Source: Polytrichum commune (taxonomy: Eukaryota > Streptophyta > Polytrichopsida > Polytrichales > Polytrichaceae). Taken from it: DNA of 64,000 nucleotides. The stretch spans positions 26,166,001-26,230,000 of the forward strand of contig OX485806.1 of NCBI GenBank assembly GCA_950295325.1, given 5' to 3'. Shown piece by piece: positions 12,052 to 63,900 of the stretch. Positions within the stretch are counted from its first letter, which is position 1; every line of letters starts with the position of its first letter. A program made the translations under genes and the position numbers. A model generated the notes under the pieces. It searched no databases, had not been told where the DNA came from, and was given only the letters and a program-made list of their open reading frames with translations.

Positions 12052-12078
12052 TAGGGTTTACGGCTCATTTTAGGGTTT
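12052..12078 (+). promoter_or_regulatory. Paired telo-box motifs upstream of the snoRNA cluster
   Basis: TAGGGTTTA at 12052-12060 and TAGGGTTT at 12071-12078 are telo-boxes, followed by a pyrimidine-rich, CT-rich leader up to the first snoRNA at 12278. Telo-boxes are a known hallmark of plant promoters for ribosomal proteins and RNA polymerase II-transcribed snoRNA clusters. I infer that the cluster is one polycistronic precursor starting in this region; no TATA box is evident. Confidence 0.6.
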
Positions 12079-12277
12079 CCCGGGTTCCAAGTCGCCACCG
12101 CCGCTCCTTTCTGCTCTACTTATGGTTCTTTTCTCTAGAGGCTCACATCTCCATTTGTCCGCAGTCGCCTCCCTTCCTTCTCTTACCTAGCGTAGTGATG
12201 GATAAGTCCTGTTTTGTGTTCACAGTGTTTTCAGTAACATGTGCGCATGTAGGGTTTGTTTCATGTTTTCAGGAGTT

Positions 12278-12395
12278 GGCTGATGATGGTTACCTCTAGG
12301 GCGCAGTTGCAGGCGGTGCTGGGACCTTGTTTGACAAGGAGAACCTCCTCAGTATGCCCCTGCATTTCTATGACGCGAAACTGTAGACTGAGGCC
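12278..12395 (+). ncRNA. Box C/D-like RNA, type A, copy 1
   Basis: A 118-nt block with terminal stem GGCT/GGCC, a near-consensus C box (ATGATGG at 12283-12289) and a D box CTGA at 12388-12391. Inside, CCTTG...CAAGG forms a stable hairpin within a longer GCAGG...CCTGC stem. Copy 2 at 12987-13104 has exactly the same length and the same ends. The segment before the D box (CGCGAAACTGTAGA) does not match any rRNA stretch I can recall, so its target is unknown. It could be a snoRNA with a non-methylation role. Confidence 0.6.
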
Positions 12396-12430
12396 TTTAT
12401 GTTACATTAATACTTATTTGTATGGGTCTA

Positions 12431-12515
12431 AGAAGATGATGAGGAGAAATTGTCGCCCCAGTCCTATGCGAGTACTTGTGCTCCATGAGGATTGACTCTT
12501 TCGAATTCTGATTCT
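12431..12515 (+). ncRNA. Box C/D snoRNA, type B, copy 1
   Basis: C box ATGATGA at 12436-12442, D box CTGA at 12508-12511, terminal stem AGAA/TTCT. The internal segment GTCGCCCCAGTCCTAT is identical in copy 2, where it stands directly before a D' box CTGA; here the D' box reads GCGA. That segment can pair (one G-U) with the conserved large-subunit rRNA P-loop stretch GGCTGGGGCG, recalled from memory. The degenerate D' box may reduce its activity. Confidence 0.7.
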
Positions 12516-12536
12516 ACTGTCATTAATTAAGATTCG

Positions 12537-12625
12537 AGGGAAGTGATGATGCATTACGCGACGTCCGAACGTATCTATACGTGTGTGGATTTGCGAAATA
12601 TGATTTGCACGTCAGTCTGATCCCT
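12537..12625 (+). ncRNA. Box C/D snoRNA, type C (predicted 25S rRNA guide)
   Basis: Terminal stem AGGGA/TCCCT closes a C box GTGATGA (12543-12549) and D box CTGA (12617-12620). The guide ATTTGCACGTCAG at 12603-12615 is complementary to the conserved 25S rRNA stretch CTGACGTGCAAAT. The fifth nucleotide before the D box pairs with the A of CTGAC, the position methylated by snR72 in yeast (Am876). The rRNA sequence is recalled, not searched. Confidence 0.82.
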
Positions 12626-12668
12626 GTTGATTTGGATGAAATGAAGGCGTGGCTAGGGTACTCGATCT

Positions 12669-12746
12669 AAGCCGGTGATGAAGTAAATATCCGAAAACTT
12701 CTGATCTTTGTGATGTGTAATAATCACCATCTTTCGACTGAGGCTT
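12669..12746 (+). ncRNA. Box C/D snoRNA, type D, copy 1 (snR60/U80-like guide)
   Basis: A textbook C/D RNA: terminal stem AAGCC/GGCTT, C box GTGATGA (12675-12681), D' box CTGA (12701-12704), C' box TGATGTG (12711-12717) and D box CTGA (12738-12741). The guide TCACCATCTTTCG (12724-12736) is complementary to 25S rRNA CGAAAGATGGTGA. The +5 rule points to an A in GAAAG, the site of yeast snR60 and animal U80 (yeast Am817). The D' guide does not match the second snR60 target. Confidence 0.88.
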
Positions 12747-12782
12747 GATCGGTTGTAGATTTTGGGTAATATGACCGGAGGA

Positions 12783-12860
12783 GGCCGGGTGACGATAGAA
12801 AACATAGACCTGTTCTGAGAAATCAGTGAGGAACAAAACATGCACTACCAACTGACGGCC
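12783..12860 (+). ncRNA. Box C/D snoRNA, type E (two predicted 18S rRNA guides)
   Basis: Terminal stem GGCCG/CGGCC, C box GTGACGA (12789-12795), D' box CTGA (12815-12818), C' box GTGAGGA (12826-12832) and D box CTGA (12852-12855). The D' guide CATAGACCTGTT (12803-12814) pairs with 18S AACAGGTCTGTG with one G-U, pointing at the G modified by snR56/U25. The D guide CATGCACTACCA (12839-12850) pairs with the 18S stretch TGGTGGTGCATG with one G-U, pointing at the U modified by snR55/U33. Targets are recalled from memory. It has no counterpart in the second unit. Confidence 0.82.
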
Positions 12861-12986
12861 TTCTCCATACAGGGATATCCTGTTGTACTCTCTGGTATAC
12901 GAGTGTCGATTTAAGTGCAATGTGGTTATGAATCGTTCCACTTCAATGGCGGTTTAGTTTTCGGTTGGAGGTTTGTAGTTCATCTA

Positions 12987-13104
12987 GGCTAATGATGGTT
13001 ACCTCTAGGGCGCAGTTGCAGGTGGTGCTGGGACCTTGTTTGACAAGGAGAACCTCCTCAGCAGTCCCCTGCATTTCAATGACGCGAAACCGTAGACTGA
13101 AGCC
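12987..13104 (+). ncRNA. Box C/D-like RNA, type A, copy 2
   Basis: A 118-nt block nearly identical to 12278-12395. Here the terminal stem is a perfect GGCT/AGCC, so the pair shows one stem change (G-U in copy 1 to A-U here) that keeps pairing. The C box is ATGATGG and the D box CTGA is at 13097-13100. The internal CCTTG/CAAGG hairpin is kept. Target unknown. Confidence 0.6.
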
Positions 13105-13135
13105 TCTTGTTTAAAATTTTGATTTGCAACTCTAT

Positions 13136-13220
13136 GAATGTGATGAGTAGAAATTGTCGCCCCAGTCCTATCTGAGTACTTGTGCTCAATGAGGATTGAC
13201 TCTTTCCACATTCTGATTCT
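13136..13220 (+). ncRNA. Box C/D snoRNA, type B, copy 2
   Basis: C box GTGATGA (13140-13146), D' box CTGA (13172-13175), D box CTGA (13213-13216) and short terminal stem GAA/TTC. The guide GTCGCCCCAGTCCTAT (13156-13171) directly abuts an intact D' box, making this the more convincing member of the pair. It can pair with the conserved 25S segment GGCTGGGGCG, with the first G as the predicted methylation site. The segment before the D box differs from copy 1, so only the D' guide appears constrained. Confidence 0.72.
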
Positions 13221-13249
13221 TTCGGTTTTTTATTTAGAAAACAATATGT

Positions 13250-13310
13250 ACTTTACGGTGCCGGAACCGTATGAATTCTGCGTTTTGTGGTTTCACGTCA
13301 GTCGATCTCA
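13250..13310 (+). pseudogene. Degraded type C snoRNA remnant
   Basis: TTTCACGTCAGTCGATCT here aligns with TTTGCACGTCAGTCTGATCC of the type C snoRNA. The D box CTGA has lost its T, the guide carries a change, and no C box or closing stem is found upstream. It lies at the expected place between B and D in the second unit, so it is a dying copy. Confidence 0.6.
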
Positions 13311-13339
13311 TAACAGATAGTTATCGAGGCAATTCAACC

Positions 13340-13419
13340 CAAGCTGGTGATGACTTTGTAATCCGAAAATATCTGATTTACATGATGTGTATTAATCACC
13401 ATCTTTCGACTGAGGCTTG
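13340..13419 (+). ncRNA. Box C/D snoRNA, type D, copy 2 (snR60/U80-like guide)
   Basis: Same plan as 12669-12746: terminal stem CAAGCT/GGCTTG, C box GTGATGA (13347-13353), D' CTGA, C' TGATGTG and D box CTGA (13410-13413). The guide TCACCATCTTTCG (13396-13408) is unchanged although the rest has drifted, which argues that the guide is maintained by selection. Predicted target is the A of CGAAAGATGG in 25S rRNA. Confidence 0.86.
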
Positions 13420-16063
13420 GAGGATTGTCATTAGGTTAGGGCTTTACTCTACTGGACTAAATTTGCTAACTAATAACAAAGGGGGTTTTTTTTACAAAAT
13501 AAACTGTGCTGAACAGCAGACAATATTAAATGCAAAAGACAGTGCAATATGGAAGAAATTGGCGGCTTACTCGCAAGTTAAAATCACAATTAAGTACATC
13601 CTTACCGAATGAGGGGAACCACTTTCCATGGCTTTCATACGATCATATTGCTCTGGGAATATGATCGGAAAGCGAATCTCAATTTTGAAGAATTCACTCT
13701 GCGGAGAAGGCTGTTGGTAAAATGATAAGTGATGGAGAAGTTTGTCAATGCAATGGAGCAGATGAAGGAAGAAAGAATCAACTCATGGTATCACTCACCG
13801 TGAGACCGAGTCGATATGTTATGGGAGTAAGTGTTAAACACTACACCTAATATTCTAGCTCTAAATCTGAAGCTCTGAATGTCGGAGGATCGTGTTTGAA
13901 GTCCCAAGAAAACCGAACTTTTGCAAAACTTCACAAAAAAAACTGAATGTTAGCCTTCCTGTATTGAATGTGTAAATAGAATGTTGTCTCACCATACTGA
14001 AGTAGTATATGCAATAAAATGATACACTTTAAATATTTAGATTCCTTACATAATGCACTTGATCATCATCCAACTCCAAGGGCTAAGCCCTCCGGTTTTC
14101 GGTCAATCCAAGATTCAAAAATTCTAACCCAATCCATATTTTCCATTGCAAGACCGTACAATGGTACTCGCATTTACGCATCTAATGTTTCAAGTTTCAA
14201 TGGACTTCTGCAATCACTCTTCACCCAATTCTATTTGGGAAATCCACGCTCACATATACCTGTGCTTGCCAAGCCGAAGATGCAGTTAGTGTCGAGTTGA
14301 AGTTGCAAAGTCGAAATTGCAGTAGTAGTTGTTGGATTTTGGAAGAGTCTGCTCGAGTGCCAAGATTGGAGTCCAACTATATTGTTATTTGCAAATTGCA
14401 ACCATTGTATTTTGTGACATGCAGTTTTTGGAGAGACCTTCGTTGTGAAGGGTGGAAACTTTGCATGACAAGATTTTGTGAAGTGCCCAAAAAAAAAAAC
14501 TTTTTTGATGGCCAAAATGGCATTTGATAGGTGTTGAAGACTTCAATATTGAACATTGCATATACCTACATGATAGTTCTTGCATGGTATATAGATCCAA
14601 ATTCTTTGTAATGTTAAAAAAATAAAATTGAAATACTAATTTATCATTTTGAAAACATTAGAGCTATAAGAATTATAGTGATATCAATCCCACTACATGA
14701 AACATTGTGTTTGGTGTTACTTACTATTTGGAATTGCACAATGCTATAACTATTTACAACACATCTCATTTCTTTTGGTTAACAAAGGTCAAATTAGTTG
14801 TAAGGACATTATAGAATATTAACATCTTTACTTGGTAAAAAATTACATGAGCCGTAAAAAGCTAAAGCATTGTGTAACTCCAAAAATTAAGGGACATCAA
14901 GTATCATATGTAGTGTAGTGCTATATCCATAACCCCATCCTAAACCACATATGCAAGAACTATGCCCTTAATCACGTGCTATATAGATTGTTAGGGTTTG
15001 TCGTTTGAAAGTGGCTAGAATCACCCAAAACTTTGACACACCCTTTATAAAGGACATTCTTGGACATGGGTGGATAAAGTAGTTCAAAAATAGGAACTCC
15101 AACTTGACACTTAGAGTGATGCAAGGTTTGGTGCAAGGCAAGGCAAAGGGTTTATGCATTGAGAATCTTGCATTTTAATATGAATATTGAATATGTACTT
15201 TAGGCACAACTACCCATACACTCACATTTGGAATTGTGATGAGTCCAAGGCCCAAGTGGGGTGGATCTTGTGAAGACTTATGACATATATTGAAGCACAC
15301 AAAGGCATATGATCATATGTATAGAGTGTGAATAACATTTGTTAATGATATAAAAAAATTGTTAGTTGGTTCACCAAAGATAATGTTTGGTTCTAATATT
15401 TGAAACAAAACTAATAGAATTAGCATTTCATATGCGTTATTGTAGTATAGTGCCTTGAAATAAATATTGACATAATTTCAAATGTGTTTATAAATGTTTT
15501 TTGGTGTGAAAGGAGAAAAATATTCCCAACAACTCTTGCTTGGAGAAACCATTTGAGAAATTGGAAGTCAACAATTTTCATGAACATAACAAATATATTA
15601 GGAAAGTGTTCACTAGTTGAGAGGTTGGCCATGAGCTCAATAGAAGACCATAAACCTAAGTATGATGAACCCAAATCCACTTTTCAAAACACCATAATAA
15701 AGTGAACCTTGCACACTCCCCCAAAACACATTCCCTTCTCAAAATGGACCTCCAACCATGCGCTTACGGGGTAGTACCCCACACGTTGGTTTCAAATAAC
15801 ACGAGGGACTAAGGAAGATTTAGGGCCAACAAACAGGGAGAAGTTACAAATAAACTGGTTGGGTTTGAGAACAAACTGGTTGAAGTTCAAGACTTCAAGA
15901 ATATCACCCATCATTTCAAAGAAATATATGAAATATTCCTCAAATTATTGACGAAAAACTGAAAGATCACAACATGTAACCGGTTGGACTTGGAAACACT
16001 AGGATTTTGACCGATTATGGCCAAAAACCTCCCAAGACACTTGTTCAAGGGGAAGGGGGGCAC
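13420..16063. other. AT-rich spacer, no gene seen
   Basis: A T-run at about 13484-13491 follows the snoRNA cluster. The rest has only short ORFs lacking recognisable motifs. Confidence 0.5.
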
Positions 16064-48410: not shown

Positions 48411-48988
48411 TTGGTTTTGGAAAGTTTGCAATATGGCCATGGCTTACCTCCATACCACCTCTTCCTATTCTTTTGAGATGAGCATGTACACCTTTGCTAG
48501 ATAGATCGGCACATATGTAGCTGGGTACCCTCATAGGTACAATGGTTGCAAGGACATAAACCTGACTTTCCAACAAAATATGCAATGCAATTAAAGATAG
48601 GATCCCATGTTAATGTTTCAAAGTTAAAATCATAAAAGCATTACAAATATTTATGGAGCCTATCAAAATCAGAGCATAGATGCAACATTTACAGGGAGTT
48701 TGAAGTAAAGATTCTTTCTTTTGAAATGATTGCATAAATAATGATATGATAATTAATATGCAAATATTGTGATCTGAACATAATCATCACTGCTTATTTA
48801 TAAGAGGATCCTACAACACAATTCAACATGTTGTAATTATGGACTGGGACTTGGTTCGATCTCACTCAAATATCAGTTCACAACCTCTAGGTCATTTTAA
48901 TGCCGCTGCCCCTTGTCTAATATGGAAGTTGCGTACCCAGGATGACAACATCCTCAGCCGCTCGCAGGAAAGTATTCAACTTATTTTT

Positions 48989-49516
48989 GTTACCAAGTAC
49001 CAAACAGAAGTGACATAAAATGTGAGTACATTCACTTGTTGATCAAATAGTAGGTGTGATTTCTGAAGGTCATTTTGTTACCAAGTACCAAACAGAAGTG
49101 ACATAAAATGTGAGTACATTCACTTGTTGATCAAATAGTAGGTGTGATTTCTGAAGGTCATTTTGTTACCAAGTACCAAACAGAAGTGACATAAAATGTG
49201 AGTACATTCACTTGTTGATCAAATAGTAGGTGTGATTTCTGAAGGTCATTTTGTTACCAAGTACTAAACAGAAGTGACATAAAATGTGAGTACATTCACT
49301 TGTTGATCAAATAGTAGGTGTGATTTCTGAAGGTCATTTTGTTACCAAGTACCAAACAGAAGTGACATAAAATGTGAGTACATTCACTTGTTGATCAAAT
49401 AGTAGGTGTGATTTCTGAAGGTCATTTTGTTACCAAGTACCAAACAGAAGTGACATAAAATGTGAGTACATTCACTTGTTGATCAAATAGTAGGTGTGAT
49501 TTCTGAAGGTCATTTG
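48989..49516. repeat. Six-copy 88-bp tandem array
   Basis: Units begin at 48989, 49077, 49165, 49253, 49341 and 49429, exactly 88 bp apart. By eye the copies are identical except for one C-to-T change in the fourth (49262-49264, TACTAAA for TACCAAA) and the edge of the last. The array has no spacers, so it is a minisatellite. It lies 435 bp beyond the stop of the reductase gene and may fall in its 3' UTR. Confidence 0.97.
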
Positions 49517-58975: not shown

Positions 58976-60560
58976 TTAATACTAAGATAATATATTTCTT
59001 GATAAATCCTATGACAAATCTACTTATTTATTTAAATTTATTTAAATAAATAATAATAAGTCATAATAAACATTGAGATCCAATGCGACATATATAGTCC
59101 TTAATTCCTTTGTCCCAAAAGTAGTATCCCAGTCGTGAATGGACCCATGTATTAATTAAATTTGAATAATAACCCTTGAATGTATGGGCCTATTTCTAAA
59201 AATTAAAAGCACTACATATGAGTAAATTTAGTTTACTTGGCGGAGCACAAATTCAAATGCAAAATCCTACATAAATAGGAAAAAGTATATTGAAGATATA
59301 ACCACAATTTCAACATGATTGGACCATATTTGGATTGGTTATGATTTATTGCATGTAATATACATAATTGAGAAAATATTGTAAGCATTAAAATTCATTA
59401 AAACATTCACTGGTGATGAAGATAGTAGGTATTCATTACTAGATAGAAAATTGCAAAGGAGGAAGTTAAAAGAGGGCACATGATCGAAGCATCCCTAGAA
59501 TTTGATTTGCATTTTAGGCACTCAATTTTTTTTTTAAATCAATGGGTGTGGAATCTACATATTAGGTTTGTTGCTCAATCCCAACAATCAAAGGATGCAA
59601 CATAACCTAACTTAAACATCTTGTAGAAAGAGTATCTCCAACAGAGGTTTGGAAATTGATGATTTGGCCTTTTGACCAGAAATTCGCCACTTTGAGGTCG
59701 CCCAACTTTTTTTAGGATTATAATTGTTTATAAGTTGTATATTTGAAATATTGACTTGTACTATTGGGGGGGTACTTCAAAGTTCACCACAAAGGGCATA
59801 AGCCATGTGCAGACGAGCAATTTCTCTCCTCCTCTGCATTTTATGTCTCCTCTTTCTAATCCTACATCCCCACTTATTCCGTCACAACTACTACAAATGT
59901 GAAGAACATGTTTAGTTCAACCCTTGTGTCAAAATCTAAATATTGAGATATATATGTATAGAACATGCCCAAAAACGATAGTTGAGCACTTCAAAGCTCA
60001 TCACAAAGGTTAGCATAAGGCATCTCTGACTTTAGGTCATCAATGAATTTGATTTCTTTATTTTCTATTTGAGTTAGTCGGTGGCCTTGTGGTGACATGG
60101 CAAGGGTCCAAGGGTTGTACATATTAGGATCCTCCCAATGGTTGCAACATGGGGATAGGCAACAAAGCCATGGCCATGGCCATGACAAGATGACAAACAT
60201 AAGGTTGTAGTTTGGCATGGCAACATGTTTTTGAGGGGCCATCGTGAGCGAGCATCAAGGAATACATAGGCGCTATGGGGTGGGAACATTGTGCCCAAAA
60301 TAGGAGGAGGAACACAATGTTTCGATCCGAAAAGATTTTGGTGTGGCAAGATGAAATTTGTATCCGGCTTTTTAAGAAAGGGGACAAAGGTAAAAACTTG
60401 TCATGTAGTTAACAAGGATTTAAGTAAATATGACACACATTAACAAGGCTAAAAAAATGTTAATACATGCATTACAACAAATCGAAGTAATGTATATGTT
60501 TTGTAAGGATTGATTGGTATGATTGGAGTGAGTACGGTAGTTGTGTTGAGTTGGGAGTGC

Positions 60561-60965
60561 TATCATGTGAGTGGTGAGCAGTAAGCGATGAACGGTAACA
60601 TATGAGCATTGAGCAAGAAAATGTCCATGATTTTGAATGTACTAATATCCTATAACGTGGTATTTTAACCTTGAAAGTGTATTTTGATACACATAAGATG
60701 ATATATTGTATGTTTTCGACCACCCCAAACCGGAGCTTATGATTCATTGAATTCATTTTTTGCCTATCATGTGAGTGGTGAGCAATGAACGATGAGCAAT
60801 AACATATGAGCATTGAGCAAGAAAAAATCCATGGTTTTACATGCACTAATATCCTATAATTGTGGTATTTTTACCTCGAACATGTATTTGGATGCACATA
60901 AGATGATATATTGTATGTTTCCTACCACCCAAAACCCGAGCTTATAATTCATTAAATTCACTTTT
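60561..60965. repeat. Two-copy tandem repeat, period 214 bp
   Basis: TATCATGTGAGTGGTGAGCA begins at 60561 and again at 60775. The copies share ACATATGAGCATTGAGCAAG, ACTAATATCCTATAA and AAGATGATATATTGTATG in order, with roughly 10 percent divergence by eye. Each contains a GAGCA-rich start. Confidence 0.85.
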
Positions 60966-63900
60966 TTCCAAGATTGTGAAACCACCACAACAATCCAAAA
61001 GGAGAAAGCTAAAATGGCAAACATTGGTGTACACCCTTGAAGATGCCATATGGTATGTGACACTCGCCATCCTCCCTGTAGCATTTGAGGAAGCATACAC
61101 ACAAATAAACATCATCAACCTATTTGAACAATGCTACATCCCTATAATGCCCATACATGTATGCTACAACAAATCCACTTAATAGCTATCCAATACCTCA
61201 CCCTACTCATGCTCAACGAATGTAAATTGGACAACCACCAACACCACATACACACACAAAATCCCCAGGAATGAGTTTTACAACATGATGCCTAAACCTA
61301 GTCAATTAGCTCAAATTAAGGGATAAAACAACCTCCCCGAAGACACCTCAAAAATCGAACCCAATTTAGGTTGCAACAAGTTAAGACACCATGCCCTCAC
61401 AACACCCACACTTGAGATGCACAACATTGCTAGAACAAAGCACATATTCCCGCTTATGGGCCTACAGTGCCCCCCGTCATTGGTTACTAATAGGGACCAC
61501 CTCCAACATGAGGCAGTAGCACTTTGTCCAAATATCCATTCTCAATAAAGCTACTCCAAATTCACATATGAGCTCGCAACTATGATCAAGGTGAAGCATC
61601 CCTCATTCACACCAACATATGCGGTTGGCGTTGTCTCTTTTCTTCTCCCTTGTCTCTATGTTTGCTATATTCACAACTTTTGTTAGGTATACAATTTCCA
61701 ATGAAGTCATTGTGTTAGAACAAATGAGCCCCATAAGATTCAACATTAACCCTTAACTTCCTAGAGCATATTGTGGTTTTATTGGATCATCTAAAAAGGT
61801 AGGCTTTCTAGAGCTCAATTTTCATTGTAACTAAAAGAAAAGTTCTTGCTAATGATTTTTAAATCACATTGATACAATAGCAATATTCAATGATTTTTCT
61901 GATTTTTTTATAATTGATTGAAAATCATTAAACTCCAGGAAAATGTGCTAAATGCATGCAATAAAATTATAATCCAAATTCAAGATTATATTAAGAATGG
62001 ATATACACTTTGAGGGAAGAAAAGATTCCATAGAGAATTGACCATTTTCAATCAAAAGAATATGAGGTTATTATACAAAGGGAAAAGTTAGTTCACTCTT
62101 TAAAATTTTCTTGTGAACAACCATATTTTCAAATTGGAATGGGATTATTGTCATTGACAAGAAAAATTCATGAGGAACACAATGATACATGTTGTGACCT
62201 TCCTAGTGCCTTTGTTTTGGATGAATTTGCCTTCAAGAGTCATTCATAAGCCCAAAACGGGCCTCTCAAGAAGTTAGGGGTTAACAATTGGAATCCCAAC
62301 ACGGTTGGAATACCGAGAGGGTGTTTTCAATAATTCTTCATACTTATTTTTTTTAAACAAATTTGGACTTTCAATGCATCTTTGTGGGCCCTTTTTTGGT
62401 CATCATAGAATCAAATGTTATGATTATCGAGAACTCGCCATCACGCCAACTTTCCTCCACATATCCTCCCAACCATCCTAAGATCCAGTTGCTAGTTGGG
62501 GTGCATGCTACCAACCTAGTCAAACCCCCTTGGCTACCTCCCAAGTACATTATCAAACCCAACAATGAGGGCGTCAAATCTGAAGATTTTTGAGAAAAAT
62601 TAATAAAACTTGAAACCAACAATAATATCTCAAAAAGATTGGAAAAGACCCCATAAAACAAGTTGAGGCTTTGAGGCCCTTGACGGTCTTTTGGACCATG
62701 TATAGTTGAAATTTGCTATTGGTTTCTCTACAAATTTAATGTATCATTGCAAGTTTTGCACAACTCTACAACTTGTAACTAGTATAGCCTCCCTTTAATT
62801 GCAATGAGATCATAATTAAAAATAATGATAGGAGGCCCAATAAGCCCAATTATATGAAAAATTGAACATAATAGGGTACATGATATTCTCCAAAACCCAA
62901 GTGATATCCCTTGGGTAAAGACCCTTTGGTTGCAAATATAATGAAAAAATACCAAAGGGTGTATCCCCAAGGCATCGCCTCCATAGAACACGTATCCTAC
63001 CCTATGACAATTGGTGACATCCCACATTGCACATGTCCGAAGTTCATCCAAAGTTTATTTGAGTTGCATGAAGCTTTGCTCAAATAAGTATGTCTTCTCA
63101 TGCTTTATAAAAAATAAAAATAAAAAACTTCAAACATATTTATTATGTGTTTAGATTTTTGTGCAAGGTGGATTATGACAATGACATGTTCATTCATGTA
63201 CCAACATACACCTACAACAAGGTCATGCAACTACTTGAACTTGCCAATGTTGTAGAATGTGAGTAATGTTTCAAGCGTTTGTATTCTGCTATATGTTTAA
63301 AATGTCAATCTGTGATATGTATTGATATAGATTGTTATAGTAAGAATTAACAATGGACAGATTTTTTTAAAAGTATATGTGATAATAAGCCCACTTCACT
63401 CTTAAAATATTTCAATTATTAAATGTGCTTACAATTCTATGTCAAGTAAATACATAAAAACAAGTCCACTATAACTTTGGATACCACCTTTGACATTGGT
63501 GTTTGTAATTACTCTCTTTATACACTTATGGTGTTCAATGCTTGCCACAATGGAATTTTTGATGCGTGTAATATAACCAATAAACATGATTGCAAAAGTT
63601 TAGTTGTCTTTGTGAAACTTATTATGAGCAAGTTGCAAGCAACTCGTCCAAAATAATGCCTGAATGCATTCATTATGACATCAACGAGGCCAAGCATAAC
63701 ACTTTGAGGTGGGTGTTATTATTATATGGTTCATTGTCTATTACTTTATATATGTTTTATGATTTTTCAATATTTATATTTTAAAAAATTATGTGTAGTT
63801 TTTTTCAATATAATCTATTCATATTCATTATCCCTATCACTTAATTTTAAATATAGCCTATCCAAATCTTTATCCAAATATGAGAACCACAACGTATTAC

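Follow-up and report, generated by a model that had tools for sequence, protein, structure and literature searches.

The region at 12276–13418 (plus strand) of the window, by which we mean the whole 64,000-nucleotide stretch of Polytrichum commune DNA that was analysed, raises the question of which small RNAs are encoded in about 1.1 kb, what these RNAs act on, and how two similar series of genes came to follow each other there. Judged from sequence comparison, the cluster is most probably (we would put it at about 0.8) one of some 20 dispersed copies of a U31/HID2-type snoRNA cluster in this genome, with the genes B to E predicted to guide 2'-O-methylation at five rRNA sites. The snoRNA families and the type of cluster are already described. 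Three lines of evidence support a box C/D cluster with guides matching rRNA: Rfam matches, conservation among paralogous loci, and the pairing of guides with rDNA pieces from this genome.

Eight recognisable box C/D snoRNA genes were found, in the order A-B-C-D-E and then A'-B'-D', together with a decayed remnant, C' (Table; a prime on a gene letter marks the second unit, whereas D' box and D' guide are meant in the usual sense). The original prediction had described nine C/D blocks, A-B-C-D-E and A-B-(C)-D, with the C, D and D' boxes and the closing stems directly visible. The order held, and the motif scan found the boxes in the places it had given, with C and D boxes present in all eight genes; the ninth block, C', has a D box short of one base and is counted here as a remnant. 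It aligns locally to C with a score reached by 1 of 500 shuffles, and gave no hit with the profiles built from the blocks. The C boxes of E and of A (ATGATGG) are variants. Closing stems can be seen in the sequence itself and, for A, in the alignment of its copies as well. A host gene was also sought among the open reading frames of the window, and the three of at least 170 aa had no Pfam match.

Table. Features of the snoRNA cluster and its upstream region; positions are those of the window, and Rfam gathering scores are given in brackets.
Feature	Position	Strand	Description or predicted target	C box	D' box	D box	Rfam match
Putative promoter	12052–12257	+	Telo-boxes (TAGGGTTT) at 12052, 12071 and 12250, by motif scan
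A	12276–12398	+	snoZ278/SnoR4-like structured C/D RNA gene	12283–12289		12388–12391	RF00201 snoZ278, 12279–12394, 20.1 bits (36)
B	12432–12516	+	U31	12436–12442	12463 (CCTA)	12508–12511	RF01285 U31, 12432–12514, 55 bits (37)
B, D' guide	12451–12462	+	25S G2620
C	12535–12627	+	snoZ122/snoR72Y	12543–12549		12617–12620	RF00343 snoZ122, 12535–12627, 43.2 bits (38)
C, D guide	12600–12616	+	25S A885
D	12669–12748	+	U51-like	12675–12681	12701–12704	12738–12741	RF00134 snoZ196, 12667–12748, 44.7 bits (55)
D, D guide	12724–12736	+	25S A816
E	12784–12865	+	U33-like, two guides	12789–12795 (GTGACGA)	12815–12818	12852–12855	RF00133 SNORD33, 12782–12861, 37.5 bits (44)
E, D' guide	12803–12814	+	18S G1434
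E, D guide	12839–12850	+	18S U1273
A'	12986–13107	+	Second A copy	12992–12998		13097–13100	RF00201 snoZ278, 12988–13103, 22.9 bits (36)
B'	13136–13220	+	Second U31	13140–13146		13213–13216	RF01285 U31, 13136–13219, 51.1 bits (37)
B', D' guide	13155–13166	+	25S G2620
C'	13269–13307 (about)	+	Remnant of C, about 40 nt			One base missing
D'	13341–13418	+	Second U51-like gene	13347–13353	13373–13376	13410–13413	RF00134 snoZ196, 13339–13420, 44.5 bits (55)
D', D guide	13396–13408	+	25S A816

In the Rfam scan, both U31 genes and C, which is of the snoR72Y type, exceeded the gathering scores of their families. The two genes of U51 type, the gene of U33 type and both copies of A matched their families over the full length, with scores under gathering. 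Since it carries the guide for A816, D would work like U51, although by score it falls outside the Rfam family snoZ196.

The rRNA of this genome was available as scattered rDNA pieces, which were found with reference segments as queries, and no whole rDNA unit was used; a 19.8-kb stretch of contig C5, inspected for such a unit, held a fragment only, and 5.8S was not found in the genome search. Three fragments were picked for holding the expected sites: 220 nt of 25S (L026), 521 nt of 18S (L028) and 170 nt of 25S (L030). The best 18S match, on the small contig C22 (L024), was dropped as plant rRNA because it looks animal-like. This contig carries an rDNA unit with an 18S start only 86% like the plant reference 18S, and is a possible assembly contaminant.

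Against these fragments we compared 14 guide candidates, each consisting of the 20 nt upstream of a D or D' box, using 2000 shuffled guides as the control. Seven of them, from B, C, D, E, B' and the D' gene, pair with sites methylated in Arabidopsis, which fall at the +5 position. The D guide of C forms 17 bp, one of them G-U (0 of 2000 shuffles as good), and those of D and of the D' gene form 13 bp each (1 and 3 shuffles as good, respectively). The D and D' guides of E each form 12 bp (2 and 7 shuffles), as do the D' guides of B, with two G-U pairs, and of B' (14 and 21 shuffles); the D' box of both B and B' is CCTA. The original prediction had matched the guides of C, D and E to stretches of rRNA known to be methylated, and pairing with the plant's own rDNA bears this out, since the sites fit (A885, A816, 18S G1434 and U1273); the match of the B guide to 25S G2620 is an addition to that list. 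Complementarity to the rRNA of this plant, on which the prediction depended, was seen for the seven guides above, while the other seven (the D guides of A, A', B and B', and the D' guides of C, D and the D' gene) had no match in the fragments used, with 867 to 1735 of 2000 shuffles as good. In yeast, the guide sites of C and D belong to snR72 and snR60.

In Arabidopsis, the five sites are assigned to U51 (A816), SnoR72Y (A885), SnoR35 and U31 (G2620), U33 and SnoR34 (U1273), and SnoR19 (G1434), according to Table 1 of PMC8053127. The spacing of the predicted sites, 161 nt for the two in 18S and 69 nt for the two in the 25S fragment L026, equals that of the Arabidopsis numbering published in the same table. 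A table in PMC3511168 gives 18S U1273/G1434 as the sites of yeast snR55 and snR56. Bound by fibrillarin and its partners, the box C/D RNAs of genes B to E would, as expected from the register of the pairing, guide 2'-O-methylation at G2620, A885 and A816 in 25S rRNA and at U1273 and G1434 in 18S rRNA.

The guides are also better kept than the remainder of the genes. The first-unit window copy served as reference, and copies shorter than 75% of the window gene, as well as the C box, were omitted. Guide plus box differed at 9 of 378 positions in B (139 of 1000 in the remainder of the gene), at 9 of 242 in C (143 of 925), at 28 of 286 in D (177 of 854) and at 74 of 881 in E (273 of 1072); because the copies are related, no p-values are attached to these counts. 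In the window, D and the D' gene do not differ in guide plus box (0 of 17 positions, against 14 of 54 in the remainder), so the earlier observation that this guide remained constant while its flanks drifted is upheld. The corresponding counts for B and B' are 0 of 21 and 6 of 56, a contrast that is weak alone (p 0.18). Among the covering copies, window included, those with an identical guide plus box number 13 of 19 for B, 10 of 16 for C, 5 of 16 for D and, in E, 11 of 26 for the D' guide and 10 of 30 for the D guide, so that guides are altered in many paralogues. In block C of eight loci (L008, L009, L010, L012, L013, L014, L017 and L018), GGATGA stands in place of TGATGA in the C box, and the guide is mostly kept.

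The combination of genes resembles a known plant cluster. The two duplicated clusters that are disrupted in Arabidopsis hid2 contain SnoR4a/b, U31a/b, SnoR5a/b, U33a/b and U51a/b, with SnoR5a/b as the H/ACA members (section 17, PMC8053127). The cluster described here shares with them the U31, U51-like and U33-like genes with the same 25S and 18S targets, an orphan C/D gene, and the duplication of the cluster. By family, target or position, and not by sequence, four of the HID2 members have their counterparts in A, B, D and E, and the fifth in an H/ACA-like gene of the paralogous loci. The window cluster differs in having the additional gene C of snoR72Y type, the G1434 guide in E and a second unit of A-D-E type, and in having no H/ACA-like gene. 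Plant snoRNA clusters can be conserved, and section 6 of PMC5122169 names ten, none of them with U31; the conclusions of that paper place U31 and snoR72Y among hypothesised recent families. A 2021 review gives U31 (HID2) as the sole functionally characterised plant snoRNA (PMC8351944). Reports on the effect of U31 on methylation of G2620 conflict, as it is given as reduced in section 17 of PMC8053127 and as unchanged in PMC7464842, PMC11542601 and PMC8351944.

Gene E joins a U33-type D guide, for 18S U1273, to a D' guide for 18S G1434. In Table 1 of PMC8053127, U33 is listed for 18S U1273 and 25S G3292, and SnoR19 for G1434 and U1448; E therefore unites one site of U33/SNORD33 (RF00133) with one of SnoR19/U25, at a score under the SNORD33 gathering value. 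A gene like this was not met in the literature on plant snoRNA clusters, in searches not aimed precisely at dual-guide genes. It is quite conceivable, if somewhat short of an even chance, that the D' guide of E is idle and that G1434 is methylated by an ordinary SnoR19 encoded elsewhere, as the assignment in Arabidopsis would suggest; the guide and box are identical in fewer than half of the covering copies, as given above, and the guide is altered in the second-unit copies of E. The pairing itself argues for an active guide, since G1434 lies at the +5 position of a 12-bp duplex that few shuffles equal. The genome also offers little sign of a separate SnoR19: the exact 14-mer of a fully paired G1434 guide plus D' box occurs once, against twice for the reversed control, and at that sole place no C/D gene was seen and no Rfam match was obtained, a result that holds for this exact 14-mer form of a SnoR19-type guide. 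In our reading, E would serve both 18S sites.

Gene A aligns with snoZ278 from end to end, including the C and D boxes and the region GUUU..CAAGGAGAACCU, and the scores of A and A' fall short of gathering. In Arabidopsis, SnoR4 is likewise an orphan within the U31 cluster (section 17, PMC8053127). From its position in the cluster and the weak snoZ278 match, A appears to be a divergent, SnoR4-like relative of snoZ278. A genome search with snoZ278 gave no matches, and its controls were equally silent. A model (R1) built with A' included gave A' 149 bits, and the model of A detected just two copies in the 64 kb, A and A'. An alignment of 15 copies supports a long internal hairpin as well as a closing stem: 95.8% of cells are paired, and five pairs carry changes on both sides, where shuffles give 1.4 (0 of 500 as high). 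The folding energies of A and A' as single sequences are ordinary (z −0.31 and −1.10).

The D guides of A and A' found no target in the rDNA fragments, being equalled by 1693 and 1169 of 2000 shuffles, respectively. When the whole of A was compared with the three fragments and with a 5.8S sequence not drawn from this genome, its best pairing was at chance level (92 and 99 of 100 shuffles as good). For SnoR4, 5.8S Gm155 was once proposed as the target, a proposal given as unconfirmed in PMC8351944, where a role in ITS2 processing is suggested instead; pairing of A at Gm155 was sought with the same 5.8S sequence and not found. The yeast RNAs snR4 and snR45 are named as acetylation guides in the same review (PMC8351944), and the search against the three fragments and that 5.8S gave no support for such a function in A. 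The RNA may perhaps act in pre-rRNA processing or as a chaperone. Taken further, the U31/HID2 cluster of this lineage might be a wider rRNA-modification module that recruited snoR72Y; its U33 gene would have gained a second guide and replaced SnoR19 at G1434, with a single RNA for both 18S sites, 161 nt apart, and the orphan A, with its structured RNA, would act on pre-rRNA by some means other than methylation. As a whole, we regard this proposal as speculative and doubtful. The dual-guide gene E and the orphan A, with its internal hairpin backed by covariation, are concrete targets for functional tests.

The cluster recurs in the genome. A search with the cluster region gave at least 55 matches, and cluster blocks are carried by at least 22 further places, of which 22 were mapped (L002–L023), leaving out two weak single matches (C6 near 1.92 Mb and C4 near 37.74 Mb). 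The order A-B-C-D-E is found in four of these 22 loci (L002, L003, L004 and L005), and an A-D-E unit follows E in seven (L002, L004, L005, L009, L013, L014 and L017, partly decayed in the last). The remaining loci have shorter or reshuffled sets of blocks, and L020–L022 have E only. The copies, at about 20 places, offer a resolved case of plant snoRNA clusters multiplying and reshuffling, in which genes were gained, were lost or decayed and the guides were better kept. Two of the loci, L015 and L016 (C3 near 40.997 and 41.000 Mb), lie about 3 kb apart in opposite orientation; they are made up of the same blocks, identical in sequence, and each has a second H/ACA-like copy after E. Matches to U2 snRNA lie near the U33-like genes of L018 (1291–1409, minus strand) and at the start of L021.

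These loci also bear on the origin of the second unit, which had been taken for a tandem duplication. Within the window cluster, the direct repeats of A, B and D are 93%, 91% and 76% identical. A local duplication of A-B-C-D giving A'-B'-C'-D' would account for the repeated order A-B-(C)-D, with a spacing of 672–709 nt, and for the position of B' in the tree, near B and the B of L002. In the trees, however, A' and the D' gene fall with second-unit genes of other loci and not with the A and D of the window, at moderate support (84 for the A split, 56 and 67 for the D splits; ultrafast bootstrap), and seven other loci have the A-D-E unit behind E. Because the blocks and the two-unit plan recur elsewhere, the second unit is probably no fresh local duplication; the tandem account is too simple and probably wrong as a history, and we consider it unlikely. 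The placement of A' and the D' gene points instead to an older two-unit plan, to which a B-C pair was added and from which the last E was lost.

The genes that lead the paralogous loci extend this history. In 17 of the 22 loci (L002, L004–L006, L008–L019 and L023), the first block is a conserved H/ACA-like element of about 139 nt, of which L003 has a fragment; it is absent from the window (best match in the 64 kb, E 7.2). The element resembles an H/ACA snoRNA in layout, with an ANANNA hinge and a terminal ACA seen by eye; a 3' hairpin did not come out clearly. In the 5' hairpin, 96.5% of cells are paired, and eight cells carry changes on both sides, where shuffles give 2.5 (0 of 500 as high); counted as pairs, just two are changed on both sides (26 of 500 shuffles), and pair types are not in excess (476 of 500). 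No Rfam family matched the element at its gathering score. Judged by eye, pairing of the 5' pocket is possible near 18S position 1003 (ACGA-UC-AGAUACC; Arabidopsis numbering), the site of yeast snR31. Comparison of the copies suggests an older plan in which the H/ACA-like gene was followed by A-B-C-D-E and then A-D-E; in the window copy, the H/ACA-like gene and the final E would have disappeared, a second B-C pair would have been inserted between A' and the D' gene, and C' would have decayed.

The upstream region is consistent with this. Of the 16 telo-box motifs in the window, three lie upstream of the cluster. The first two are 19 nt apart, and L008, L009, L010 and L014 have a pair with this spacing upstream of their lead genes. 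Measured from its start, the pair is 224 nt away from A in the window and 222–229 nt away from the H/ACA-like gene in these four loci; from the matching distances, the H/ACA-like gene probably dropped out between the promoter and A. Counting the window, 19 loci were examined for telo-boxes, and in 15 of them one lies upstream of the lead gene at a distance of 420 nt or less. Promoters with a telo-box and a site II motif are described for plant snoRNA clusters in PMC4660826; no site II motif was found within 550 nt. The closely spaced genes on the same strand and the telo-boxes upstream make a polycistronic cluster plausible, and, as in plant snoRNA clusters generally, a single Pol II precursor, started at the telo-box promoter, would be processed to yield the individual box C/D RNAs.

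That the window copy is a decaying relic, the working RNAs coming from the paralogous loci, would agree with the decay of C', the loss of the H/ACA-like gene and the last E, and the repeat directly upstream of the cluster, yet it is improbable, given a guide and box constant between units in D and, with the weaker contrast, in B, scores of B and C that exceed the Rfam cut-off, and three telo-boxes retained upstream.

The segment 11950–12276, between this repeat and the first gene, has no other match in the genome. The repeat adjoining the cluster region begins before 11500, extends to about 11940 and has at least 39 other copies at 88–91% identity. Tandem repeats are found at two further places in the window, one of six 88-nt copies with 99% matches (48985–49515) and one of two 205-nt copies (60560–60967).
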